DNA from: an uncultured Faecalibacterium sp.
Lineage (GTDB): Bacteria; Bacillota; Clostridia; Oscillospirales; Ruminococcaceae
Length of the DNA: 39,657 nt
Assembly: GCA_900539945.1 (NCBI GenBank)
Contig: UQDV01000024.1
Coordinates: 1 to 39,657, forward strand
Reading direction: 5' to 3'
The notes under the pieces are model-generated. The model ran no database searches. It had not been told where the DNA came from and saw only the letters and a list, made by a program, of their open reading frames with translations. Below, piece after piece: positions 1-39,657 of the stretch; positions within the stretch are counted from its first letter, which is position 1, and the number at the start of each line of letters is the position of its first letter. The position numbers were made by a program, and so were the translations under genes.

Positions 1-169
1 ACAACCAAAATATTTTTTTCGTATCTTAAAGCAGCAAATTGCTGTCCAATATATTTGTTCATAGCGGCACCATTTGTTCTGAGCGTAGTTTTATATCTTA
101 TTATATCACAGCACCCCTTCAATGAAAATATTTTGTTGGAAATGCTAATGAAAAATTTTTGTGAATTTG
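1..169. other. AT-rich stretch without a gene
   Basis: No open frame with a ribosome binding site is visible here. On the minus strand there is a TATAAT at 100-105 with a weak TTTTCA 17 bases upstream (123-128). It could drive a left-facing gene outside the window, but this is speculative. Confidence 0.35.
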
Positions 170-502
170 TTAAGGCGCAGGGGCTGTTATCTCCATAGTG
201 TCTGGATGGATCAGAGTGATTACTTTTCCCTGATGCAAGGCATAGTTGACGGTCTGTGCTGTACCTGAGCGCAGCTTTTTCTGATTATCAAACACACCGA
301 TAAGGTACTCTGCATGATCGACCATATAATAATTTCTTTTTTTATAACTGGAAACATCCGCAGAGTGTGAAATAACAATAGAATCGTTTGCGTTTTGGAT
401 CAGCTTTTTCAATCTATGTTTACTCTGATCCGGCCATTTAGAGTCATAGCCGATGAAGGGAACTACAACGATAATTTTAATATAAAAGTCAATATGCTTC
501 AT
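170..502 (-). pseudogene. Truncated SLOG-family (YpsA/DUF1273-like) fragment
   Basis: The readable protein (about 110 residues from the ATG at 502) matches the second half of the SLOG/DUF1273 (YpsA-like) Rossmann-fold family. It has a 'PFIGYDSKW' strand, then 'KKRNYYMVDHAEYLIGVFDN', then 'RSGTAQTVNYALHQGK', the usual order of that family's C-terminal half. The N-terminal half, which begins with a GHR-type motif in full members, is missing. Upstream the frame runs into the C-terminal codons of the DUF975 gene: the ATG at 502 lies inside that gene and overlaps its TGA. No separate ribosome binding site is evident. I read it as a gene fragment left by recombination. A short translated product coupled to the DUF975 gene cannot be excluded. 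The family's function is poorly defined (nucleotide-derived ligand binding is proposed). Confidence 0.6.
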
Positions 503-1277
503 CCGGTTCGGTAGGTGCTGCGGTAATATCGCGGTAGAAAGTAGCCCATGCAGCTTCCTCATAGGGGTGTACAAAAAAGAAGCCAATGCTCAATGGAATT
601 GTCAGCAGAAGAACAAGAGAAATCGCCAGAGCCTCTGAACCGGTGAAATATTTGAGAACCAGAAAACCCTCGGCATACAGTGGCACCGAACAGAGCAGCT
701 CCCAGCCAATGAAGCTGAAATCCAGACAGAACAGCCGCCATTTGTTGCCATTCATGATCCGCCGGGATTCTGTGATCGCTTCATTTGCGGTCAGCGAAGG
801 ATGCTCGGACATGATGTAAGGTGTCATCGCATAGCTGTATGTTTTCACGATTCCCGGAATCACCAACAGCAGCGACCAGAGGGCGATGTACAGACCCTGC
901 AGGAATTTCATGCAGAAGCCATCCCACAGACGGTCTTTCTGAGAGAACAAGTCCGAGATGGCAGCATCATTTCCATCTACAAGGTTCAGATTAAAATGAG
1001 CATATCCCAGTTGAACTGCACCGCCCACGATCAGTTGGAGGACTGCCCACAGAACAATGCCGGCAAGCAGAACAGCAAGCAGCCGACCGCCGTTGGGCTG
1101 GGAGAACAGTTCAAAATGGATGTCCTTTGCCTGATTGGAATTGGATACGGCACTGTTGGAACTGCTCACAATGGTAGCACCGAGCGCACTGGCGGCAATA
1201 CCTGTCAAAACAGCAGTTTTCCATTTTCCGCGCAGGGCATCGAGAGCGAGCATACGATAGTCGGCAGATACTTTCAT
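489..1277 (-). CDS. DUF975 family integral membrane protein
   Basis: The 262-residue product has the DUF975 pattern: an amphipathic N-terminus ('RMLALDALRGKWKTAVLTG'), several hydrophobic segments, and the signature around 'PGIVKTYSYAMTPYIMSEHP' followed by 'ITESRRIMNGNKWRLFCLDF'. At least four membrane spans are likely. Start: the ATG at 1277 is chosen because AGGAGG sits seven bases upstream; a longer frame reaching 1337 has no comparable site. The function of DUF975 proteins is not established. The gene lies downstream of the coiled-coil gene (1469-1804), with a terminator-like hairpin between them, so it is probably transcribed separately. Its last codons overlap the truncated SLOG fragment. 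Confidence 0.85.
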   Translation of the reverse strand: MKVSADYRMLALDALRGKWKTAVLTGIAASALGATIVSSSNSAVSNSNQAKDIHFELFSQPNGGRLLAVLLAGIVLWAVLQLIVGGAVQLGYAHFNLNLVDGNDAAISDLFSQKDRLWDGFCMKFLQGLYIALWSLLLVIPGIVKTYSYAMTPYIMSEHPSLTANEAITESRRIMNGNKWRLFCLDFSFIGWELLCSVPLYAEGFLVLKYFTGSEALAISLVLLLTIPLSIGFFFVHPYEEAAWATFYRDITAAPTEPDEAY

Positions 1278-1383
1278 AAAAGCAACCTCCTGTCTGAAAA
1301 CGGCAAGGATTTGTGAAATAGGAAGATGATATACCACTTTAATTTAGATACGTTTGAAAAGCTGAAAAAATTGCAGCATGAAT

Positions 1384-1427
1384 GAAAAAGAGGCTGTTAC
1401 ACCGGTTTTATCCTTGTGCAACAGCCC
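1384..1427 (-). terminator. Rho-independent terminator of the coiled-coil gene
   Basis: Read on the minus strand, GGCTGTTGCAC pairs with GTGTAACAGCC around a 13-base loop and is followed by CTCTTTTTC. It lies just after the end of the 1469-1804 gene and before the DUF975 gene. Confidence 0.7.
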
Positions 1428-1468
1428 CTTCCTTTACTTCAGCAGCTTGTCCAGTTCATCATATTGCA

Positions 1469-1804
1469 TTACTGGAGCTTTGCAAGGATTTCTTCAGCCG
1501 TCATACCGCTGGCAAGCAGCTTCTTCAGCACATCTTCTGCTTCGCCCTTCTTTGCTTCTTCTGCTGCTTTTGCTTCGGCGGCAGCTTTTTTGTTTTCGGC
1601 TTTGGCAAGTTCCTTGGTGGCGGCTTTCAATTCTGCTTTCTTGGCTTTCAGCTGCGTCTTCAGATCATCGAGATTTGCAGTCAACGTAGCAACCTCAGAT
1701 TCGATTTTCTCTTTTTTTGCGGCCTTTTCTGCAATGACTGCTACATAATCAACGCTGGCCTTTACAGTACGAGCCTTATTCTTGCTTCCCTTGGGTCTTG
1801 CCAT
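1469..1804 (-). CDS. Small Lys/Glu/Ala-rich coiled-coil protein
   Basis: I do not recognise a named family. The 111-residue product opens with 'MARPKGSKNK', a basic AT-hook-like start common on small mobile-element proteins. A long heptad-like Lys/Glu/Ala/Leu region follows (about residues 25-90), then a short 'AEDVLKKLLASGMTAEEILAKL' tail that resembles a small helical hairpin. No cysteine, membrane segment or signal peptide is present. A soluble DNA-binding or scaffolding protein is a guess from composition. Start: the ATG at 1804 with GGGAGGA about eight bases upstream. A promoter (1846-1874) lies upstream and a terminator (1384-1427) downstream, so it is probably a single-gene unit. Confidence 0.75.
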   Translation of the reverse strand: MARPKGSKNKARTVKASVDYVAVIAEKAAKKEKIESEVATLTANLDDLKTQLKAKKAELKAATKELAKAENKKAAAEAKAAEEAKKGEAEDVLKKLLASGMTAEEILAKLQ

Positions 1805-1845
1805 AATAATTTCCTCCCATAAAGTGAAATAATTTGATACTTACA

Positions 1846-1874
1846 AGTATATTTCCAAATAGTCAGAATTGCAA
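1846..1874 (-). promoter_or_regulatory. Promoter for the coiled-coil gene
   Basis: On the minus strand TTGCAA (1869-1874) is separated by 17 bases from TATACT (1846-1851). It lies about 40 bases upstream of the ATG at 1804. Confidence 0.55.
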
Positions 1875-2020
1875 TAGGTAACATGAGCCGTCTTCAACTG
1901 CCAATGCAAATCTTATTCGGTATGCCCGAAGATCGTCGCAAATGTATTCCTTCAATGGTAACAATCATGGAGATTAGTGTTTATCTGGAGATTACCAAAG
2001 GATAAATAGAAGCAGTATTA

Positions 2021-2067
2021 AAGCCGTTCACCACGCAGATTTTCCAGCGTGGCGAACGGCTTTTTTG
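2021..2067. terminator. Strong hairpin terminator
   Basis: AAGCCGTTCACCACGC (2021-2036) pairs with GCGTGGCGAACGGCTT (2047-2062) around a 10-base loop. A run of T follows on the plus strand; the minus side has only TTTAAT. It may also end the left-facing XRE gene at 2080. No convincing plus-strand gene precedes it. Confidence 0.65.
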
Positions 2068-2079
2068 CTGCCCCTATAT

Positions 2080-2283
2080 TTACAGGTAGGAGGAATCGAA
2101 GAAGTCTTTTAATGTAATTCCTAAACCCTGACAAATTCTTTCAATCGTCTCTACGCTTAACTGCCCTCCCCGACGGGCGGTGGTTTGAATCGTGGAGTAC
2201 GATATTCCGCATTTCTTTGCCAATACACATAGATTCATATCACGCACTTGCATCAAATCCTGAACACGCTTGATCGTATCCAC
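2080..2283 (-). CDS. Small XRE-type helix-turn-helix regulator
   Basis: A 67-residue protein consisting almost only of an HTH_3/XRE domain: 'VQDLMQVRDMNLCVLAKKCG', 'SYSTIQTTARRGG', 'SVETIERICQGLGITLKDFF'. This is the five-helix Cro/CI fold of compact phage and transposon repressors. Start: I choose the GTG at 2283, because GGGAGGAG lies five bases before it. The upstream ATG (2298) overlaps that ribosome binding site and has none of its own. It lies 19 bases downstream of the S24 repressor gene on the same strand, so the two are probably co-transcribed from the promoter at 3164-3192. It likely helps set the element's quiescent state, but its operator is not identified. Confidence 0.8.
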   Translation of the reverse strand: MDTIKRVQDLMQVRDMNLCVLAKKCGISYSTIQTTARRGGQLSVETIERICQGLGITLKDFFDSSYL

Positions 2284-2302
2284 AAAAACTCCTCCCATCT
2301 TT

Positions 2303-3130
2303 TTAGTTCAAAACTTTTCCAACAACCTCGAATCTTTGCTCTGGAGATATAAGGATCGGCGAATATTTGGTGTTAAGAGAAACCAAAACCGGTTGGTTAT
2401 GCACCACGCCATAGCTGTCGGTAAGGAACTCTGCTTGGGATTTGTCTGGGGTATGTTCATCGTATTTTTTCAGATATCCACAGTCATCATATACGAATAT
2501 CCCGATATCCCCGCACTCAAGTTCTTCGCAGCGCTTCACCCATACAATCTGTCCGTTATGATAGCGTGGCTCCATACTATCACCGCTAACATATATCCCG
2601 AACTCGGCACCAGCCGGAACGCTACTGGCAGGCACTTGTATCTGCTGGAACATTTCACCCTCAAGAAAAGCTCCTAGACCTGCCGATACTGGCAACTCTG
2701 ATACAGGCATCATTATGTAGTCGATTTCCGCGGGCTCTTCTGCGTCTGGCTGGTAGCGTCGGGATGCAATCAAGTCCATTTCGTACTCAGCGACTTTTTT
2801 TTGCCCGATGTCATTTAGAAGGGCGGGTTTCTGGAAGTTCTTTGTAAAGTAGGAAGGACCCTCCTTGATGTTCAATGCGTAGCAGATTGCAACTAGTTGG
2901 TAGATGCTAGGAGTGGTATAGCCTTTTTCCCATTTGCTGATTCCTTTATCACTGACATCGACGCCATAGTGACGGAGAAGTTCAGAGAAAGCTACAAGTG
3001 AATAGCCATTTCTTTTTCGTGTGCCTGCGAGAATCTGACCAACCTCATTGCTATCCCTCGCAGCGACTGCATCATAGCGCACTGTGGATGGGGCTATGTG
3101 CATTTTGGTGAGCGTGGTTTTCTTTTTCAT
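2303..3130 (-). CDS. S24 (LexA/CI-like) self-cleaving repressor
   Basis: A 275-residue repressor. Residues about 29-95 form a Cro/CI helix-turn-helix ('GTRKRNGYSLVAFSELLRHY', 'DKGISKWEKG'). Residues about 148-275 form an S24 peptidase domain: a likely Ala150-Gly151 cleavage site ('VSAGLGAF'), nucleophile Ser185 in 'VSGDSMEP' and a catalytic Lys at 221 or 222 in 'CGYLKKYD'. In this family RecA-stimulated self-cleavage inactivates the repressor after DNA damage, so SOS induction of the element is expected (inference). Start: the ATG at 3130 with AAGGAG upstream. The gene faces away from the rightward operon and shares a short control region with it (3131-3340), the usual layout of a lysogeny switch. 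Confidence 0.9.
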   Translation of the reverse strand: MKKKTTLTKMHIAPSTVRYDAVAARDSNEVGQILAGTRKRNGYSLVAFSELLRHYGVDVSDKGISKWEKGYTTPSIYQLVAICYALNIKEGPSYFTKNFQKPALLNDIGQKKVAEYEMDLIASRRYQPDAEEPAEIDYIMMPVSELPVSAGLGAFLEGEMFQQIQVPASSVPAGAEFGIYVSGDSMEPRYHNGQIVWVKRCEELECGDIGIFVYDDCGYLKKYDEHTPDKSQAEFLTDSYGVVHNQPVLVSLNTKYSPILISPEQRFEVVGKVLN

Positions 3131-3163
3131 AACAAGAACACTCCTTTGTGATCCGGTAGCTCT

Positions 3164-3192
3164 ATTATAGTATAGAAAATATAAGAAATCAA
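3164..3192 (-). promoter_or_regulatory. Promoter of the repressor operon
   Basis: On the minus strand TTGATT (3187-3192), a 17-base gap and TATAAT (3164-3169). It points to the S24 repressor and then the XRE gene. It is back to back with the rightward promoter at 3226-3254; the 33 bases between them are the likeliest place for operators. Confidence 0.75.
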
Positions 3193-3225
3193 CAGGAAAT
3201 CTCTAAAATGGCGACAAATGCGCAA

Positions 3226-3254
3226 TTGACATCTCCATAAAGTGGGTGTATAAT
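3226..3254 (+). promoter_or_regulatory. Consensus rightward promoter of the element
   Basis: TTGACA (3226-3231), 17 bases, TATAAT (3249-3254): a perfect sigma-A promoter. It would transcribe the zinc-ribbon/ImmA operon. Such a strong promoter next to a repressor gene is probably repressor-controlled. Confidence 0.85.
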
Positions 3255-3340
3255 CAAACCAAATCCACAAATAACAGCCTTTTGGTGTTATTTTCGCATG
3301 GGATTGTGTTTGTTTGGCGTTTTTTTTGCGAGGTGATACT

Positions 3341-3538
3341 ATGAGAAAAGAAAATGTAAGATGTCCAATGTGCGGAACCATGAATTATGATGTGGATCTT
3401 GATGAAACCGGTGGCTGGACAAAATGCCGTCTGTGCAAAGCAGTGACCTGCTCTATGGATGAGTGGAAAAAACATACAGTGTCCGTTCCGCTGTTGAACG
3501 AAAAACAGCTCGTGGCACGCAGTATGATTCGCAAGTAA
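3341..3538 (+). CDS. Small zinc-ribbon protein (65 aa)
   Basis: No named family is recognised. Two CxxC pairs (Cys8/Cys11 in 'CPMCG' and Cys29/Cys32 in 'CRLC') separated by 17 residues form a typical zinc ribbon, followed by a basic C-terminal tail. It probably binds zinc and acts as a DNA- or RNA-binding adaptor (inference from fold). Start: the ATG at 3341, preceded by GAGGTG; an in-frame ATG at 3314 has no ribosome binding site. It is the first gene after the consensus promoter at 3226-3254, so it would be the first product made when the repressor is lost. Confidence 0.7.
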   Translation: MRKENVRCPMCGTMNYDVDLDETGGWTKCRLCKAVTCSMDEWKKHTVSVPLLNEKQLVARSMIRK

Positions 3539-3581
3539 TGCACGCCGTGTTTTGATAAATCCGCAAAAAGGAGGAATTCTG

Positions 3582-3863
3582 ATGTGTGGTGATTACAACC
3601 TTCGCCGTGAGAAAAGATACGTCGAAGTGGACGTTCGTTTTACTCCTGACGGTAAGATCCGCCCTCTTGCCATAAACTATGACAAGGCTCACACTTATGG
3701 AATTGATCGTGTCTTGGCAGTCAAACATGGGACATCACGCCTAGGCGGAAAAGGTCACTGCTTCACCTGCCTGATCTGCGGTCAGAAGCGGAATCTTTGG
3801 CTTGAACGGGGCAAGTGGTTCGTGGAAGCCTACTGCTCCGTGCCGGAAAGCTGTGCTTCGTAA
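3582..3863 (+). CDS. Hypothetical 93-aa element protein
   Basis: The family cannot be named with confidence. The protein has an N-terminal beta-rich half ('KRYVEVDVRFTPDGKIRPLA'), a 'YGIDRVLAVKHGTSRLGGKG' segment, then 'CFTCLICGQKRNLWLERGKW'. That order suits a small beta-barrel or ribbon protein, of a type I associate with Clostridia integrative elements. Start: the ATG at 3582 behind AAAAAGGAGG. The stop codon overlaps the ImmA/IrrE start (TAATG at 3861-3865), so the two are translationally coupled. Confidence 0.7.
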   Translation: MCGDYNLRREKRYVEVDVRFTPDGKIRPLAINYDKAHTYGIDRVLAVKHGTSRLGGKGHCFTCLICGQKRNLWLERGKWFVEAYCSVPESCAS

Positions 3864-4570
3864 TGGCAAGATACTTATCCCGCGCAGATCTTTCGCACAT
3901 AGCGGGTAAGTATATCGACCAGTACTATACCCGTTTCGGGATCAGTAAAGATGACCCAGAACCCATTGACCCTGAACGGCTCGCAAGTTCTGTTCTTGGG
4001 CTGAATGTGAAAATGCTGCCGCTATGCAGCGATGGAAGTATTCTAGGACTGACTGTTTTCCAGAAATGCGGTTTTACCGTAACCTTGGGGGACGGGACAA
4101 AGCTTGTGGAGGTGTTCATGCCGAAGGACGTTGTAATCGATTCCGCCCTTGCGTCAGACAGCTGCACCGGATGCCGGAATTTCACGATAGCGCATGAAGC
4201 GGCGCACCATATACTGGCTGACCTGTTTCCGAACGACTACGGAAAAGCAGTCAAGTGCCGTGGGCACATTGCCTATCGGGAACGAAACGGACAGCCCTCA
4301 TGGGAAGAATGGCAGGCGAATACCCTTGCAGCGGAGCTGCTGATGCCAACATTTCTGGTCAACGCCGAAATAGAACGTGCAGCGCTGTGCCTGCCAAATG
4401 GAATCCTGTACAAATCCGCATCGGACCCGAACTATGAAAGAATTCTGGAGATGGCTGCACGGATCGGGGTATCGTGGTCTGCGATCAGGATCAGATTACA
4501 GCAGATGCAGGTCATCAACGGAAAACCCATCCACTGCCATCCATTGGACGTCATTCGATTTGGAGAATAA
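3863..4570 (+). CDS. ImmA/IrrE family metallopeptidase
   Basis: This 235-residue protein carries the zinc-peptidase motif 'HEAAHH' (His111, Glu112, His115), followed by 'WEEWQANTLAAELLMP'. There a Glu supplies the third metal ligand, as in ImmA and IrrE/PprI. ImmA-type proteases cleave the repressor of their own mobile element and so trigger excision (known for ICEBs1). Here the substrate could be the S24 repressor or the XRE protein encoded just to the left (inference). Start: the ATG at 3863 overlaps the previous stop codon. It replaces an upstream in-frame start lying inside the preceding gene. The C-terminal 60 residues, after 'GVSWSAIRIRLQQM', form a short helical extension. Confidence 0.85.
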   Translation: MARYLSRADLSHIAGKYIDQYYTRFGISKDDPEPIDPERLASSVLGLNVKMLPLCSDGSILGLTVFQKCGFTVTLGDGTKLVEVFMPKDVVIDSALASDSCTGCRNFTIAHEAAHHILADLFPNDYGKAVKCRGHIAYRERNGQPSWEEWQANTLAAELLMPTFLVNAEIERAALCLPNGILYKSASDPNYERILEMAARIGVSWSAIRIRLQQMQVINGKPIHCHPLDVIRFGE

Positions 4571-4571
4571 T

Positions 4572-4775
4572 ATGACTTGGTCAAATAATCGCTCTTTTAA
4601 GAGTAAACCGCTGAACAATATACAGCAGGCACAATTCAGCATTGGCTGGAGGTTTTGTCCGGTTTGCGGACACAAGCTCTACCAAAAAACCGAGAGCTGT
4701 TCAGGCTCTATCAGCATAAAGTGCCTCAAGTGCGGTAACATAGCAACAGTTGACTTAGCCTACCGCAGACGCTGA
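4572..4775 (+). CDS. Small Com-like zinc-ribbon protein (67 aa)
   Basis: A 67-residue protein with paired CxxC motifs at Cys29/Cys32 ('CPVCGHKL') and Cys51/Cys54 ('CLKCGNIATVDL'). The spacing and the 'IKCLKCGNI' end resemble the phage Mu Com family of small zinc-finger translational regulators (resemblance by eye). Start: the ATG at 4572, one base after the ImmA/IrrE stop, with GGAG inside the end of that gene. It is the last gene of the 3341-4775 operon, and the structured intergenic region follows directly. Confidence 0.65.
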   Translation: MTWSNNRSFKSKPLNNIQQAQFSIGWRFCPVCGHKLYQKTESCSGSISIKCLKCGNIATVDLAYRRR

Positions 4776-4887
4776 CTTTTTTAGACAAACCACAATTTCA
4801 AAAATCGGGTGCATTGCACCCTGAATATGGACTGTTCGTCACCGAGCAACGGGCCATTGCCGCAAGGCAATGTATGAAACGCGCACC

Positions 4888-4962
4888 AAATAGCCGGGCA
4901 ACAGCTGATAGAGTGATTCTGCTTTAGAACCGCTCTGTTAGTTGGTTGTCCGGCTATTTTTT
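4888..4962 (+). terminator. Large terminator-like hairpin
   Basis: AAATAGCCGG (4888-4897) pairs with CCGGCTATTT (4950-4959), with a further CAAC/GTTG pairing inside and an AGAG/CTCT stem in the loop. Six T follow on the plus strand. It probably ends the 3341-4775 operon. Confidence 0.55.
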
Positions 4963-4973
4963 AGCCTTCAGGT

Positions 4974-5006
4974 AGCCTGCTCCCGTAAAAAGGAGCAGGC
5001 TTTATG
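4974..5006 (+). terminator. Second hairpin, possible terminator
   Basis: AGCCTGCTCC (4974-4983) pairs perfectly with GGAGCAGGCT (4992-5001) around an eight-base loop; TTATGTTTG follows. The short T-run makes termination less certain. Confidence 0.4.
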
Positions 5007-5055
5007 TTTGTCCGTTTTTCGTGGATGCCCCAAGCGGCGAAATATCCGTAGCCTT

Positions 5056-5096
5056 CCAAATTTTCGACTTTTTACGATTTATCGAAAATTTGGAGG
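5056..5096 (+). promoter_or_regulatory. Stem-loop partly masking the ribosome binding site
   Basis: CCAAATTTTCGA (5056-5067) and TCGAAAATTTGG (5082-5093) form a perfect 12-bp stem with a 14-base loop. The final GG of the stem are the first bases of the GGAGG ribosome binding site (5092-5096) of the sigma-like gene at 5103. It could act as an RNA switch or as a DNA operator. Confidence 0.6.
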
Positions 5097-5102
5097 TTTA
5101 CG

Positions 5103-5576
5103 ATGTCTTTTAATAAAGGCTATGAGTTGAAGAAGTTTGAAGCACACTGGGAAAAGTTGCGCATCGAGTACGCAGTTGCGGGAATGACGGAAGAGGCCAT
5201 CCAGAAGATGTACGACTATGACCGTCAGCAGTTCAATTCGAAACGTACCTTCGTTGAGCGGACGCAGGAATTCACGGCTCCTGCGTATGAAGGTTCCGAG
5301 GAAGAAGCATCTCCCTTGATGTTGCGCTATCAGGAGGTCATTACCACAACGGATACCTATCACGAAACTAAGAGCAAATTTGCATGGATCGGTGAAATCG
5401 AGAACGAACGGTTGCTGTCTGCTCTTGAAAATTTATCGGAAGATGACCTCAAACTTTTGACGCTCTACGCCTATGAAGGTTACAACGAGAGCGAAATTTC
5501 TAAAGTTTTTAATATCTCACAGCCTGCAATTCATAAGAGAATAATGAAAATCACTATTTTTTTGAAGAAGTTTTGA
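5103..5576 (+). CDS. Sigma-70 region 4-like regulator of the element
   Basis: A 157-residue protein. The C-terminal 54 residues ('LENLSEDDLKLLTLYAYEGY', 'NESEISKVFNISQPAIHKRI') are a sigma-70 region 4 helix-turn-helix that would contact a -35-like site. The N-terminal 100 residues are helical ('FEAHWEKLRIEYAVAGMTEE') and lack a recognisable region 2, so it may not be a full sigma factor. Proteins of this build are common in Tn916/Tn1549-like elements of Clostridia, where they are annotated as sigma factors. It probably activates element genes. Start: the ATG at 5103 behind GGAGG, whose exposure is limited by the hairpin at 5056-5093. A promoter for the next RNA begins inside its last codons. 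Confidence 0.75.
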   Translation: MSFNKGYELKKFEAHWEKLRIEYAVAGMTEEAIQKMYDYDRQQFNSKRTFVERTQEFTAPAYEGSEEEASPLMLRYQEVITTTDTYHETKSKFAWIGEIENERLLSALENLSEDDLKLLTLYAYEGYNESEISKVFNISQPAIHKRIMKITIFLKKF

Positions 5577-5590
5577 TTTTTGGTTATAAT
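5562..5590 (+). promoter_or_regulatory. Promoter of the structured RNA region
   Basis: TTGAAG (5562-5567), 17 bases, TATAAT (5585-5590). The -35 lies in the last codons of the sigma-like gene. Transcription would begin near 5597, at the left edge of the folded region. Confidence 0.55.
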
Positions 5591-5596
5591 TTGACC

Positions 5597-5906
5597 ATTT
5601 TCGTCGGCTACCAAGTGAGAGGACAATTTCCCAAGCGGCACTCACCGCAGGGCGAAACGTCCGACCTCAGGGACCTTGAAAACTGAATAGTTCCGTCATC
5701 TGGTACTCCGATAATGATACTTCCGTAATTCGCGGCCCGGTCACAAAGCAGACGGGGTGGCTGAAATGCCAATGAAGCGGTACAAGTCCGCTGCCAGATG
5801 TTCATGCCCCACTCGCAGGGAGCCGAGGGCGAATATGCGAGACCTTTAATCATATTGATCCGGGAACTGCCGGGTACGTTCCACGCATCCGGCAGTTCCC
5901 GTTTTT
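5597..5906 (+). ncRNA. Candidate structured RNA with boxA-like motif
   Basis: About 310 bases between a promoter (5562-5590) and a strong terminator (5861-5906) with no credible open frame. Nested pairings are visible: GTCGG (5603) with CCGAC (5661); GTGAG (5615) with CTCAC (5641); GGGG (5754) with CCCC (5807), enclosing TGGC (5758) with GCCA (5793) and AGCGG (5776) with CCGCT (5788). At 5671-5690 the sequence GGACCTTGAAAACTGAATAG closely matches the boxA-like motif of the rRNA leader at the right end of this window. The RNA could be a regulatory RNA, or a leader that makes polymerase antiterminate through the hairpin into the genes downstream. I recognise no named family. Confidence 0.5.
5861..5906 (+). 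terminator. Strong Rho-independent terminator
   Basis: CGGGAACTGCCGG (5861-5873) pairs perfectly with CCGGCAGTTCCCG (5889-5901) and is followed by TTTTT. It closes the structured RNA region and precedes the 75-aa gene. Confidence 0.85.
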
Positions 5907-5966
5907 ACGTATTCTTATTTATTCTTTACCCGAATATCCACTTTTGATACATAGGAGGACACTTTT

Positions 5967-6194
5967 ATGGACGAGTTGAACCCCACGGTGCGCGAGCAGG
6001 AGATCTACGAGGAGATGGAGCTGACCCCTGAGATGGTCAAGTCCATCCGAACTCTCTGCGGTACCTGTCTGCGGCACTTTGTGGATGCAAAGGCTTTCAA
6101 AATCGCGCTTGTACCCAGCCCAGACCGGAGCATGGACACATGCACCGTCTGCCAGATGCGGCGCGGCTATGATTATGTGGTCATGCACCGCTGA
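5967..6194 (+). CDS. Small CxxC-pair protein (75 aa)
   Basis: Unknown family. The protein has an acidic N-terminus ('EQEIYEEMELTPEMVKSIRT') and two CxxC pairs, Cys31/Cys34 and Cys59/Cys62, which suggests a zinc ribbon. Start: the ATG at 5967 with AGGAGG nine bases upstream. The MazF-like gene follows after 86 bases. It could in principle be a neutralising partner for MazF, but it has no resemblance to known MazE folds and I do not claim this. It is the third small four-cysteine protein in the element. Confidence 0.65.
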   Translation: MDELNPTVREQEIYEEMELTPEMVKSIRTLCGTCLRHFVDAKAFKIALVPSPDRSMDTCTVCQMRRGYDYVVMHR

Positions 6195-6280
6195 CCCAAC
6201 CATACCACCATACCTTGAACGAAGCTCGTTGCGGAACATCCGGCAGCGGGCTTTGCACATAACAACATGGAGGTACAATT

Positions 6281-6955
6281 TTGCAGCAAAACTGGAAATT
6301 CCAACGCGGAGACATCTTCTTCACCCATTTCGGGGCGAGCACCGGCTCGGAACAGCACGGTGACCGCCCGGTGGTCATTCTTCAGAATGACGTGGGCAAT
6401 TATCACTCTCCGACCCTGATCGTTGCGACCATGACAAGCAAGGCGGAAAAGAAAGTAAACCAGCCGACCCACTGCCTGTTGGAAAACGCAGGGTTGAATA
6501 TGCCGTCCGTTGTGCAGGCAGAGCAGATCTTCACCATCGACAAAAGCCGGGCACTGAAGTATCTGGGGCATCTGACCCCAGAGGAGATGCGCCGGGTGGA
6601 TGATGCGGTTCGCATCAGCCTTGCACTGAACCCTATGGGCAGCATCCAGCAGATAGAGCCTATCCGGCGCTCTACGGCGGTTTATGCGCCGCCTGAGGTG
6701 GTGGATGGCAAACCGCCTGTCTACCCCTATACGCCCATCCGGTCGTCCTTTGAGAACGCCGGAAGCATCGAGGAAATGATGCTGTACACCGAACTGCAAT
6801 CCGCGGTTCATGCCATGATCCAGCGGCTCGAATATAGCTTCACCTTCAATCCCAGCCTGCTCACCAGCCCGAAGCGGAAGCAGCAGGTGACTGAGATCTT
6901 AGAGGAAGCCGAGAAGTACATTTGGAGAATCAAGGAGGAAATGCGATGCGCCTGA
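6281..6955 (+). CDS. MazF/PemK-family endoribonuclease-like toxin with C-terminal extension
   Basis: Residues 1 to about 115 form a MazF/PemK domain: 'RGDIFFTHFG', 'GDRPVVILQNDVGNY', 'PTLIVATMTSK' and 'PSVVQAEQIFTIDKSRA' occur in family order. They include the conserved Arg of the RPVV segment and the Thr/Ser of the ATMTSK segment linked to catalysis. MazF enzymes cut single-stranded RNA at short motifs. The remaining 110 residues, rich in Pro then helical ('SIEEMMLYTELQSAVHAMIQ'), are not part of a usual 110-120 residue MazF. Start: a TTG at 6281 with GGAGG upstream. The end overlaps the ParB-like gene by 10 bases. No classical MazE gene is adjacent, so the regulatory partner is unclear. Confidence 0.8.
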   Translation: MQQNWKFQRGDIFFTHFGASTGSEQHGDRPVVILQNDVGNYHSPTLIVATMTSKAEKKVNQPTHCLLENAGLNMPSVVQAEQIFTIDKSRALKYLGHLTPEEMRRVDDAVRISLALNPMGSIQQIEPIRRSTAVYAPPEVVDGKPPVYPYTPIRSSFENAGSIEEMMLYTELQSAVHAMIQRLEYSFTFNPSLLTSPKRKQQVTEILEEAEKYIWRIKEEMRCA

Positions 6956-7755
6956 ACGACAACAATACTTTCATTGGTATCAACCCGCCGTACCAGCTTT
7001 CGGTCATCCACAGCAGCAAGCTGATCTATCCCCGCGAGATCTACCAGCGGGGCGTAGAGCGCAAGAGGGTGGAGCTGATTGCAAGGGACTTCAACGAGTA
7101 CATCGTTAACGAGCCGAAGGTCAGCTTCCGCAACGGCAGGTACTATGTAATGGATGGGCAGCACACCATCGAGGGCTGCATCCTCCTCAACGGCGGCGAG
7201 GACCGCCCGATCCTCTGCAAGGTCTACACCGGTCTGACGATGGAGCAGGAAGCCCTGCTCTTTGCCGAGCAGAACGGTCACGCCGCACCCCTGTCGGCGG
7301 GCATCAAGCTGCGCGCCAAGGTGGTGGGCGGCGATGCGCCTTCCAAGGCGTTTGTCGCAGCCACTAACCGGGCGGGGCTTTCCCTCAACTACGACAGTAT
7401 GCAGCTGAGCGACTACCGCATCGGCTGTGTGGGCACGGCGCTGAAGCTGTACGACCAGCTGGGCGAAGAGATCTACTGCGAAGCTCTGCGGCACATCGTG
7501 GAAGCGTGGGAGGGCAAACCGGATTCCTTCCGGGCGGCTGTCCTGCGGGGCGTGATGTACTTTGTGCAGCTGTATCATGGGCAGTACAGCGAGGAGCGGC
7601 TTGTCCGTGCGCTGAGCGGCGTCCATCCCATGGAGCTCTACCGTGTCAGCCGGGATAACCCCGCCAAGCTTCCGGGCTGGCGGCGGTACGTTTACCCCAT
7701 CTACACCACCTACAACGGCAAGTGCAGGAAAGACGCACTGCCGATGAAGTTCTAA
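6946..7755 (+). CDS. ParB/Srx-like domain protein (DGQH motif)
   Basis: The 269-residue product has the start of a ParB/sulfiredoxin-like fold: 'ELIARDFNEYIVNEPKVSFR' leading to 'YYVMDGQHTIEGC' near residue 70. There the DGQH stretch occupies the place of the ParB GERR/nucleotide-binding motif. A helical region follows ('MEQEALLFAEQNGHAAPLSA'), as in DUF6551/DGQHR-type proteins. Members are often on plasmids and integrative elements, but their biochemical role is not settled; DNA partition or a nucleotide-dependent switch is possible. Start: the ATG at 6946 with AAGGAGG upstream, overlapping the end of the MazF-like gene, so the pair is translationally coupled. The final 60 residues show no known domain. 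Confidence 0.65.
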   Translation: MRLNDNNTFIGINPPYQLSVIHSSKLIYPREIYQRGVERKRVELIARDFNEYIVNEPKVSFRNGRYYVMDGQHTIEGCILLNGGEDRPILCKVYTGLTMEQEALLFAEQNGHAAPLSAGIKLRAKVVGGDAPSKAFVAATNRAGLSLNYDSMQLSDYRIGCVGTALKLYDQLGEEIYCEALRHIVEAWEGKPDSFRAAVLRGVMYFVQLYHGQYSEERLVRALSGVHPMELYRVSRDNPAKLPGWRRYVYPIYTTYNGKCRKDALPMKF

Positions 7756-7808
7756 GCTCAAATATCTCCTTTGGCAAGTGAGATGGTTCCCGAAAAAGAC
7801 CATCACAC

Positions 7809-7837
7809 TTTACATATAGTATTTTCTGCTGAATAAT
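7809..7837 (+). promoter_or_regulatory. Possible promoter for xis-int
   Basis: TTTACA (7809-7814), 17 bases, AATAAT (7832-7837), about 30 bases before the excisionase start. The -10 is imperfect. It fits separate expression of the excision genes. Confidence 0.4.
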
Positions 7838-7868
7838 CGACATATTGAACTAGAAAGAGAGGACAGGA

Positions 7869-8234
7869 ATGAGCGAGATCGCAGCCTGCACTTTGATTCA
7901 GGAAGAGCCTGACCGAAAGACGGAGAGGTATCTGACGATGTTCAAGGACTACCCGGATGTGGTGACGGTGGAGCATCTTCAGGAAATGCTTGGCATCTGC
8001 CGGAAGAATGCGTATCTGTTGGTCAAGCAGAATAAGATCCACTCGGCGCGTGTAGGACGCAGCTATAAGATACCAAAACTCTGCGTGGTAGAGTACCTGC
8101 TCGATCAGGATCGGCAACTTGGAGGGATGCACCTTTCAAACTCCCTTGTGCCATCCTTGCAAAACACTCCAGAATCTTCTAAACTTATGATGCCTAAGCA
8201 AAGGACGTTTGGCTGCGAACAGAAAGGAGCATAA
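7869..8234 (+). CDS. Excisionase-family helix-turn-helix protein
   Basis: A 121-residue protein with a MerR-like/excisionase winged helix in the middle (residues about 33-75): 'VVTVEHLQEMLGICRKNAYL', 'KQNKIHSARVGRSYKIPK'. This is the pattern of HTH_17 excisionases. Such proteins bend DNA at the attachment site and steer the integrase toward excision. The N-terminal 25 residues and the C-terminal 40 (polar, after 'EYLLDQDRQ') are longer than in Tn916 Xis. Start: the ATG at 7869 with GAGAGG upstream; an internal Met (residue 24) would give a more standard length. It ends two bases before the integrase gene, so the two are one unit. Confidence 0.8.
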   Translation: MSEIAACTLIQEEPDRKTERYLTMFKDYPDVVTVEHLQEMLGICRKNAYLLVKQNKIHSARVGRSYKIPKLCVVEYLLDQDRQLGGMHLSNSLVPSLQNTPESSKLMMPKQRTFGCEQKGA

Positions 8235-8236
8235 CT

Positions 8237-9733
8237 ATGACAAATGTGGCCGGACATTTAAGAGAACAAAACGGTATGTATCAGATGATTCTGAGCTGGA
8301 AAGACACAGATGGAAAGCGCAGAACCAAATCCATCAGCACAGGACTTCCTGTTAAAGGAAACAAAAAAAGAGCTGAATCTCTGTTGCGTAAAACACAAAA
8401 AGAGTTTAACCCTGAAACGATGCAGCAGGTTTCCGACCTGCCGGTATCGGAATATCTGAACCGCTGGCTTCGGGAAAGCGTGATGAACCTTCCGCCCGAA
8501 ACCTATGGCAGATATGCTTATGATCTGGGAAGAGTAGTTGTCCCATACTTTGAAAAGAAGCGGCTGTCTTTGAAAGCACTCTCTCCGCGCGATCTGGAAA
8601 CGTTCTTCCGCTATGAGCGTCAGCAGGAGGAGGCCAGTGTACAGCAGCTTCTGGATTGGCACAAGGAGTTGACCGATGCCCTACAATATGCCGTTGACAA
8701 TAATTGGCTGAAGGTCAGCCCCATCAAAGAAGTTGACCCCTGCCTTGATAACTCCCCGGTACTTTTCACCGACTTCATCACGGACTGGTTGAAAATGATG
8801 AAGTCACGAGTGGAAATCACAACCTATACCAGCTATGAAAGAGCAATCGTTCACAAGATCGTCCCATATTTTGAACCGCTCCACTATACATTGCAGGATA
8901 TGGAACAGCATCCCAAATACATCCAAGACTTCTACCAGCATGAGTTGGATCGTGGCCTTACGGCAAACACCGTCATTCACTATCACGCCAACATCCGCAA
9001 ATGCTTGCAGTACGCTTTTCAAATCGGCATGATCCGTTCCAACCCGGCAGATCGCGTTGAACGTCCTCGTAAGGAAAAGTTCAAGTCGGAGATTTACAGT
9101 GGTGAAGAACTGGAGCAGCTTTTCAAAGCGATTCAAGGTGACCCTTCGGAGTTTGGCGTTATCATGGCTGCATTCTACGGCCTGCGGCGCAGTGAAGTTG
9201 TTGGCTTGAAATGGGATGCCATTGACTTTGAAAACAAGAAAATCAGCATTCAGCATACGGTTGTGACCGCAAAGGTCAACGGAACGCTAACAGAAATCGC
9301 ACGAGATAAGACAAAAACAAAGTCGAGCTGCCGGACACTTCCCCTAATCCCTGCCTGTGAGCAGATGCTCAATAAAATGAAAAAGGAGCAGGAGCAGAAT
9401 CGGAAGGTCTGCGGCAAAAGCTATTGCACCGATTATCTTGACTATATCTATGTAGACCCGATGGGAAAACGGATTCGGCCCGATTTCCTGAGCCAACATT
9501 TCCCGGATTTTCTGGTCGCACACCAGATGAAGCGTATCCGCTTTCACGATCTGCGCCATAGCTGCGCCAGTCTGCTCTATGCCAATGGCGTGAGCCTGAA
9601 GGAGATTCAGGAGTGGCTGGGGCACAGCGACATCAGCACGACAAGCAACATTTATACACATCTGGATTTCTCCAGTAAGGTATCTTCGGCGAATGCAATC
9701 GTCAATATCTTCCCAGAAAACGCCAAAGTATAA
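8237..9733 (+). CDS. Tyrosine recombinase integrase with two core-binding-like domains
   Basis: The 498-residue product has an Arm/AP2-like N-terminal domain (about residues 1-58). It then has two consecutive segments that each look like a SAM-like core-binding domain (about 68-165 and 175-272), and a C-terminal catalytic domain. Catalytic residues are all present: Arg317 ('YGLRRSEVVGL'), a Lys near 362, His437 and Arg440 ('FHDLRHSC'), His463 ('WLGHSD') and Tyr473 ('NIYTHL'). Related element integrases are usually about 400 residues, so the second core-binding segment explains the extra length. It would recombine the element at the adjacent tRNA-Leu(CAA) gene. Start: the ATG at 8237 behind AAAGGAG. 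Confidence 0.92.
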   Translation: MTNVAGHLREQNGMYQMILSWKDTDGKRRTKSISTGLPVKGNKKRAESLLRKTQKEFNPETMQQVSDLPVSEYLNRWLRESVMNLPPETYGRYAYDLGRVVVPYFEKKRLSLKALSPRDLETFFRYERQQEEASVQQLLDWHKELTDALQYAVDNNWLKVSPIKEVDPCLDNSPVLFTDFITDWLKMMKSRVEITTYTSYERAIVHKIVPYFEPLHYTLQDMEQHPKYIQDFYQHELDRGLTANTVIHYHANIRKCLQYAFQIGMIRSNPADRVERPRKEKFKSEIYSGEELEQLFKAIQGDPSEFGVIMAAFYGLRRSEVVGLKWDAIDFENKKISIQHTVVTAKVNGTLTEIARDKTKTKSSCRTLPLIPACEQMLNKMKKEQEQNRKVCGKSYCTDYLDYIYVDPMGKRIRPDFLSQHFPDFLVAHQMKRIRFHDLRHSCASLLYANGVSLKEIQEWLGHSDISTTSNIYTHLDFSSKVSSANAIVNIFPENAKV

Positions 9734-9750
9734 AAAATGGGCAAAAAAGA

Positions 9751-9786
9751 AAAACAGCCTAAAATCTTTCGTTCCTAAGCTGTTTT
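9751..9786. terminator. Bidirectional terminator between integrase and tRNA-Leu
   Basis: AAAACAGC (9751-9758) pairs with GCTGTTTT (9779-9786). On the minus strand it is followed by TTTTTCTTTTTT, so it mainly ends tRNA-Leu transcription. On the plus strand it can end the integrase transcript. Confidence 0.6.
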
Positions 9787-9795
9787 ATGATGAAG

Positions 9796-9874
9796 TGCCG
9801 ATGGTGGGACTCGAACCCACATGGTTTCCCGAACGATTTTGAGTCGTTTGCGTCTGCCATTCCGCCACATCGGC
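9796..9874 (-). tRNA. tRNA-Leu (anticodon CAA)
   Basis: A complete class II cloverleaf of 79 bases: acceptor GCCGATG/CATCGGC, D-stem GCG/CGC, anticodon stem AACGA/TCGTT with loop CTCAAAA (anticodon CAA), a short variable arm, T-stem GTGGG/CCCAC with TTCGAGT, and discriminator A. CCA is not encoded. It is the attachment site of the element: its 5' half (9835-9874) recurs at 10021-10060 and, diverged, at 10207-10246. Its own upstream DNA has no strong promoter, so it may be transcribed from the promoter at 10267-10295 through the repeats. Confidence 0.93.
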
Positions 9875-10020
9875 TTATATTCAATTTTGGGACATTAGTA
9901 CCGGTTTCTGGAGATTGGAGGGATGTTCAGGAGGGATGTAAGAAATCTCGCTCCGACAAACCCTCAAAACCCAACGTACACTCGTGAATTTCTCGCACAG
10001 ACACGGAAAATCACGAAGGG
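9835..10020. repeat. 186-bp direct repeat, copy 1 (contains tRNA-Leu 5' half)
   Basis: It starts with GATTTTGAGTC at the anticodon of the intact tRNA, runs through the tRNA 5' end, and ends with TCACGAAGGG. By eye it is identical over all 186 bases to the next copy. Beyond the tRNA part it holds no gene. An imperfect inverted repeat, CTCGTGA/TCACGA, lies near its right end. Confidence 0.9.
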
Positions 10021-10206
10021 GATTTTGAGTCGTTTGCGTCTGCCATTCCGCCACATCGGCTTATATTCAATTTTGGGACATTAGTACCGGTTTCTGGAGA
10101 TTGGAGGGATGTTCAGGAGGGATGTAAGAAATCTCGCTCCGACAAACCCTCAAAACCCAACGTACACTCGTGAATTTCTCGCACAGACACGGAAAATCAC
10201 GAAGGG
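10021..10206. repeat. 186-bp direct repeat, copy 2
   Basis: An exact tandem copy of 9835-10020, including a second 40-base tRNA-Leu 5' half (10021-10060). That half lacks a matching 3' half because the sequence beyond the anticodon is repeat DNA. The identity implies a recent duplication, probably by site-specific recombination at the anticodon-loop core. Confidence 0.9.
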
Positions 10207-10246
10207 GATTTTGAGTCCCCCTCGTCTGCCATTCCGACACACCGGC
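10203..10246 (-). pseudogene. Orphan 5' half of a different tRNA-Leu(CAA)
   Basis: Acceptor strand GCCGGTG, a D-arm and an anticodon stem GGGGA/TCCCC around CTCAAAA can be read, but no variable arm, T-arm or CACCGGC acceptor partner follows. It differs from the repeat copies at several stem positions, so it is a separate tRNA-Leu allele. It is probably the original chromosomal target that lost its 3' half. It sits just downstream of the promoter at 10267-10295. Confidence 0.7.
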
Positions 10247-10266
10247 TGATGTTCAGAACATTACTT

Positions 10267-39594: not shown

Positions 39595-39657
39595 TCAGCC
39601 GCAAGGCTGAGGCGCACAGGACCTTGAAAATTGAACAATATCGAAAAACTTGTAACG
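39595..39657 (+). promoter_or_regulatory. rRNA-operon leader with boxA-like antitermination motif
   Basis: After P2 comes a CAGCC/GGCTG hairpin with a GCAA loop (39598-39611), then GGACCTTGAAAATTGAACAA (39619-39638). This is the leader motif that Clostridia carry just before 16S rRNA and in 16S-23S spacers, and it is proposed to act with NusB/S10. The window ends 19 bases after it, so the 16S gene itself is not visible. Confidence 0.7.

Follow-up and report, generated by a model that had tools for sequence, protein, structure and literature searches.

The window analysed here is the whole 39,657-nt stretch of DNA from an uncultured Faecalibacterium sp. It holds a mobile element in which a predicted promoter, a boxA motif, a folded RNA and an intrinsic terminator precede a small open reading frame (ORF) and genes for a PemK/MazF-like toxin, a DUF6551 protein, an excisionase-like protein and a tyrosine integrase (Table 1). 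An earlier note on this DNA had pointed to two boxA-like motifs, at 5671 and at 39619, the latter ahead of a probable 16S ribosomal RNA (rRNA) gene, and had proposed that the former, as a signal captured from the host, lets RNA polymerase pass the terminator and transcribe the element's genes. Both motifs are in place, and after the second the window continues as in G001, the nearest genome examined, where 16S comes next. The promoter (by consensus match) and the terminator (by its hairpin and TTTTT) do flank the first motif, and the toxin, ParB-like, xis and int calls are borne out as PF02452, DUF6551, HTH_17 and a tyrosine integrase. The boxA at 5671-5690 does not, however, stand alone: a folded RNA of the pemK/canT class has it at its 5' end.

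Table 1. Features of the leader, the neighbouring genes and the comparison boxA, in order of window position.
Feature	Position	Strand	Basis and remarks
Sigma-70 region-4-like ORF upstream of the leader	5103..5576	+	PF08281, 31.7 bits
Sigma-70-type promoter TTGAAG-17-TATAAT	5562..5590	+	Predicted; consensus scan, 10/12 positions; overlaps the end of ORF 5103..5576
boxA, reads GGACCTTGAAAACTGAATAG	5671..5690	+	Motif match, class-wide counts; core GGACCTTGAAAA at 5671-5682, 15-mer CTTGAAAACTGAATA at 5675-5689
Closing helix P1, 5' strand CATCTGGT	5697..5704	+	Four folds of differing length; class-wide re-pairing test
pemK RNA core, beginning AUAAUGAUACUUCC	5711..5775	+	RF02913, 72.7 bits (cmscan)
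Hairpin AGCGG...CCGCT after the core	5776..5792	+	Folds
Closing helix P1, 3' strand GCCAGATG	5793..5800	+	Folds; re-pairing test
Possible 3' hairpin CUCGCA-GGGAGCCGAGGGCGAAUA-UGCGAG	5812..5841	+	Appears in folds begun at 5660 or 5687
Intrinsic terminator between RNA and first ORF, 13-bp stem then TTTTT; letters CGGGAACTGCCGG...CCGGCAGTTCCCG-TTTTT	5861..5906	+	Folds; hairpin 5861-5901, TTTTT 5902-5906
75-aa ORF	5967..6194	+	No family match
PemK/MazF-like toxin	6281..6955	+	PF02452, 99.7 bits
DUF6551 protein (ParB-like gene of the earlier note)	6949..7755	+	PF20188, 464.4 bits
Excisionase-like helix-turn-helix protein (HTH_17)	7869..8234	+	PF12728; TIGR01764 below cut-off
Tyrosine integrase	8237..9733	+	PF00589, 88.7 bits
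boxA of 16S rRNA leader (comparison copy), reads GGACCTTGAAAATTGAACAA	39619..39638	+	Motif match; continuation as in G001

The RNA that follows the boxA is recognised as the Rfam pemK RNA (RF02913) over the whole length of the model and above the gathering score of 34.8 bits; it starts 21 nt past the boxA 15-mer. Including the terminator, the region 5596-5920 folds more stably than its shuffles (z -4.2). The segment GGGNGYCGAGGRCRAAUA of the possible 3' hairpin recurs exactly in eight of the 12 short-form leaders compared.

Detection of the same RNA in a functionally characterized regulator gives the leader a likely role. canT of Tn916 is described as a cis-acting, orientation-specific, processive antiterminator that lies between orf8 and xis, is most likely an RNA, and acts on intrinsic terminators, heterologous ones included (Wirachman and Grossman 2024, PMC11658703). 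We took the canT letters from the corresponding region of Tn925, a Tn916 relative present on pCF10; the numbering of that region agrees with the published ATA at nt 283. This region scores as pemK RNA RF02913 (55.0 bits, nt 283-383 counted from the orf8 stop), has a boxA (GTTCTTTGAAAACTGAATA), carries the P1 letters AATCGAA and TTCGATT on the two sides of the core, and is preceded by a sigma-70-family ORF and a helix-turn-helix ORF. The Tn916-type canT is itself a pemK RNA. The published deletion 229-390 takes out the entire pemK RNA, and the first three bases of this RNA are the ones altered by the published S3 change (ATA to TGC at 283); in the reporter, each of the two mutants is given as less than 5% of wild type (PMC11658703). 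What these published mutations show is the role of the pemK core in canT, rather than that of boxA, which may or may not be necessary. Window and canT have in common the pemK core, the upstream boxA, the P1 letters on either side and the position between a sigma-like ORF and xis/int. They differ in that the window form is short, that several genes separate its RNA from xis, and that a terminator comes directly after the RNA. The main text of the canT report does not mention boxA, NusB, pemK or Rfam, and among the matches listed from the open-access literature no paper ties pemK RNA, boxA or Nus factors to such elements.

The boxA signal is not significant in the window alone, where CCTTGAAAANTGAA with at most two mismatches has two matches, a number equalled in 19 of 100 shuffles. 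Across the 2.94 Mb of G001, the motif is far from a chance occurrence. There, the 15-base pattern YTTGAMAAYTGAAYA has 16 exact matches, of which 12 are at rRNA genes (six about 140 nt before 16S, six between 16S and 23S) and four upstream of pemK RNAs, while the reversed pattern has none, even allowing one mismatch. Searching with one mismatch adds 14 places: the other four pemK RNAs, six antisense sites just past 23S, and four unassigned sites. Each of the eight pemK RNAs found in G001 has the motif, either exactly or with a single mismatch, so that one genome holds eight pemK leaders with a boxA on each. Because of this distribution, the boxA motif is a marker common to rRNA operons and pemK leaders in G001; the window's boxA matches the rRNA boxA of both its own host and G001. 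As for the antisense sites, the strand past each 23S (G001 positions 328834, 684057, 1306562, 2519684, 2822603 and 2885581) is the reverse complement of the pre-23S boxA 15-mer with one mismatch. Because this reverse complement sits beyond 23S, the boxA of the 16S-23S spacer may pair within the 23S processing stem.

Beyond G001, RF02913 is present in 70 of 197 genomes of the same family and in 26 of 398 genomes of the phylum (G001 being counted in the family set too), and in none of 14 control genomes. The locus set comprises 132 of the 137 family-level hits, all 40 phylum-level hits outside G001, and the window, 173 in all; three loci with less than 200 nt upstream (L111, L123 and L142) were dropped, leaving 170. 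The five family-level hits outside the statistics are three in G180 and one each in G127 and G176; two of these have only 36 nt upstream, and in each of the other three the 15-mer is present with no more than two mismatches. In three loci (L155, L158 and L160) the RF02913 match starts elsewhere than at the usual AATGATAC. Entries are not independent, as the window and L008 are near-identical copies and G001 alone supplies eight.

Within 420 nt upstream of the pemK RNA, the best match to the 15-mer has at most one mismatch in 90 and at most two mismatches in 114 of the 170 loci. At the latter threshold the controls gave 2/170 (reverse complement), 4/165 (480-900 nt upstream) and 3/164 (downstream). 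The exact core GNNCYTTGAMAA occurs in 128 of the 170 loci (86 of the 114 with the 15-mer, 42 of the 56 without it), against 3/170, 0/165 and 2/161 in the controls, and many loci that fail the 15-mer criterion retain just the 5' half of boxA. By one criterion or the other, boxA is found in 156 of 170 loci, and in 121 of 133 after removal of similar upstream sequences. Conservation of the motif in homologous elements, which the earlier note had set beforehand as a test of its idea, is thus what we see. Among 82 non-redundant boxA loci, every one has a G four bases ahead of the search motif and outside the motif itself, and most columns flanking boxA carry less than 0.5 bit; at the 15 motif positions, column information is inflated, because the loci were selected by that motif. 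In the E. coli boxA, the corresponding positions are occupied by G and C. Two boxA prefixes, GGACC and GTTCT, stand upstream of pemK RNAs within one and the same genome.

Conservation extends to the helix that encloses the core. In most boxA-bearing loci, P1 opens a few bases past boxA and closes some 15-20 nt beyond the pemK core. Its letters vary from locus to locus with complementarity kept: the mean score over 115 loci is 22.5, versus 16.8 when the 3' strands are redistributed among loci (200 deals, standard deviation 0.26, maximum 17.6). The P1 helix covaries across the pemK class.

Terminators recur downstream. A terminator-like hairpin lies 20-270 nt past the pemK core in 40 of the 170 loci (33 of the 114 with the boxA 15-mer, 7 of the 56 without), a count that includes both the window and its near-identical copy in G001; the controls gave 0-2/170 in each of ten shuffle sets and 2/164 at 700-950 nt. 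A standard terminator scan, with a loop limit of 8, lists none at 5861-5906 in the window; the counts given here come from a scan that allowed loops of up to 16. Directly past the window's terminator, the 75-aa ORF shows a CGTC...CTVCQMRRGYDY pattern; judged by eye, some other short-form leaders are followed by ORFs with a similar start.

Together, these data suggest a model in which promoter, boxA and the P1-closed multi-helix RNA at 5697-5800 make up a cis-acting processive antiterminator of the canT RNA class. The nascent leader RNA would fold and remain with RNA polymerase, and its boxA would recruit NusB and the ribosomal protein S10, the role that boxA plays in rRNA leaders and at lambda nut sites. 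The polymerase so modified could then pass the terminator and transcribe the 75-aa ORF and the PemK, DUF6551, xis and int genes; transcription might even continue across the joined ends of an excised circle. By homology, the window copy should act as canT does, and by analogy with rRNA leaders its boxA is a probable binding site for NusB and S10. Of the antitermination proposed in the earlier note, readthrough into the toxin, ParB-like, xis and int genes gains from the canT homology and from the class-wide conservation; what does not stand is the motif as the whole signal, since the part that the canT mutations show to be required is the folded RNA. That the leader is an antiterminator we consider very probable. 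For the complete account, with boxA recruiting NusB and S10 and readthrough into the toxin, xis and int operon, our estimate is 0.6, since two claims are combined in it and some of the fold and fragment results run contrary to it.

These and several other observations weigh against the model. In the 452-bp canT fragment reported as active, the sequence starts at TTGAAAACTGAATA, so that GTTCT, the first five bases of the boxA core, is missing; because of this, boxA may be non-essential in that reporter. A 400-bp canT fragment is reported as active and insensitive to the S3 change, and an inactive 291-nt fragment as retaining the sequences changed in the mutants (PMC11658703). The window RNA is of the short form, with 21 nt between boxA and core as compared with about 143 nt in canT. 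When its leader is folded from 5596, the 5812-5841 stretch pairs with 5615-5619 and the 3' hairpin is lost, and in the full leader the first boxA bases (5671-5674) are predicted to pair with 5690-5693. Free folding of nine short-form leaders is likewise incomplete, yielding P1 in seven and the 3' hairpin in six. Taken singly, just 53 of the 115 loci score above 22.8, the 95% level of the P1 re-pairings; the window, with 20.8, is not among them. In fourteen of the 170 loci neither criterion detects a boxA, with near-misses in some of them. Finally, a nearby terminator is recognised in only 40 of 170 loci, and the 20-270 nt region behind that count is mostly non-coding, whereas the 700-950 nt control is likely mostly coding.

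Among the alternatives, the one that survives best is an antiterminator made of RNA alone, in the manner of put or EAR, in which RNA polymerase would be acted on directly by the folded RNA, with boxA either dispensable or limited to fine-tuning. The activity of the truncated 452-bp fragment is in its favour, as is the suspicion of the canT authors that canT binds RNA polymerase directly (PMC11658703). An inert boxA would, however, make it hard to explain why the core is kept in 128 of 170 loci over a low background and between diverging flanks, and we regard this alternative as doubtful. Improbable, in our view, is a purely protective boxA, at which NusB and S10 would shield the untranslated leader from Rho, or aid its folding, with the intrinsic terminator not overcome. 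E. coli rrn complexes are indeed described as resisting Rho-dependent termination, but it is intrinsic terminators that recur after the RNA, and intrinsic terminators on which canT is reported to act.

The name of the Rfam family and its type, Cis-reg, might suggest a toxin-specific element, a riboswitch or attenuator for pemK, and in 41 of 164 loci, among them that of the window, PemK is the first recognised gene downstream. In other loci, though, that place is taken by a serine recombinase (55), ParA (16) or a Tn916-type integrase (8), with none of these types in the remaining 44, and the canT copy is reported to work on heterologous terminators. These gene types were called by short sequence motifs of our own making, for which the reverse strand gives one match; Pfam searches with eight such downstream genes returned one ParA-like protein, one PemK, three serine recombinases and one Tn916-type integrase, two being unmatched. 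With downstream genes as varied as this, a toxin-specific riboswitch is unlikely, and a toxin-specific element of any kind is very improbable. Least tenable of all is that the element recently acquired a lone boxA by copying from the rRNA leader of its host: the 15-mer is identical to the boxA of the G001 16S-23S spacer, but many genomes, and Tn925 too, have boxA together with pemK RNAs, it comes with two prefixes in one genome, and little beyond GGACC is common to it and the rRNA leader around it. The capture from the host proposed in the earlier note is, with boxA class-wide and present with two prefixes in one genome, not supported.

The element itself seems to have moved recently. Positions 1-10064 of the window match G001 near 0.82 Mb with 99.88% identity and the stretch at 11.7-19 kb matches it elsewhere, at 2.20 Mb, with just 86%, a contrast pointing to recent transfer. 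A 230-bp stretch with the 5' part of a transfer RNA (tRNA) gene, tRNA-Leu, is found at 9835-10064 and again, offset by 186 bp, at 10021-10250. There is only one complete tRNA-Leu, at 9795-9874, and G001 has one repeat copy fewer; the repeat may be the scar of repeated integration at the tRNA. No repeat of the tRNA end of at least 15 bases, as a left end of the element, was found in about 60 kb of G001 leftward. The plasmid collection contains no match to the leader sequence; the phage collection yields five, each an unannotated human-faecal contig named Bacteriophage sp.

The match to the published Tn916 canT mutations speaks for a likely function of pemK RNA, so far an orphan Rfam class, and suggests that control of the canT type is widespread in mobile elements of Bacillota. 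It also leads to a testable claim, that mobile elements use host rRNA antitermination factors, for which the conserved boxA, P1 and core provide a comparative frame. The Rfam model of pemK RNA is confined to a 61-position core and typed as Cis-reg only, without the boxA and P1 that the window adds to it; one paper cites pemK to exemplify RNAs located close to defence genes (PMC11061315).

Of the known RNAs, dinG RNA (RF03082) has a 5' AAUGAUACUUCC segment in common with pemK RNA, and two of four dinG loci (L119 and L122, in G256 and G283), near-identical to each other, have an exact boxA 147 nt ahead of the core. The window scores 21.8 bits with the dinG model, under its cut-off of 46.9. The pemK and dinG families may be one class, a link based on these four loci. 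With the boxA of rRNA leaders and of lambda nut, the E. coli boxA being described as bound by NusB and S10, the window shares the GNNCYTTGAMAA core, but behind its boxA comes a folded RNA that itself has a conserved core. EAR is an Rfam family. An Rfam scan of the window at the gathering score finds only pemK and tRNA families and no EAR; put and LoaP hairpins were not directly scanned. HK022 put, EAR and the LoaP leader are likewise described as cis RNA elements of processive antitermination (LoaP: PMC12691694). conAn of pLS20, consisting of the ConAn1 protein and the conAn2 RNA, is similar as an RNA-based system of processive antitermination from a Gram-positive conjugative element (PMC8955417); pLS20 1900-6200, scanned without the exact conAn2 coordinates, has no pemK match and no boxA with up to three mismatches. 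We give even odds to a wider view, in which pemK RNAs, dinG RNAs and canT would all belong to a single large class of antiterminator RNAs that start with a boxA and reside in mobile elements of Gram-positive bacteria. Such a hybrid would combine a nut-site boxA with a put-like RNA, would be loaded with NusB and S10, the host's rRNA antitermination factors, at its 5' end, and would perhaps couple the activation of integrative elements to the status of ribosome synthesis.
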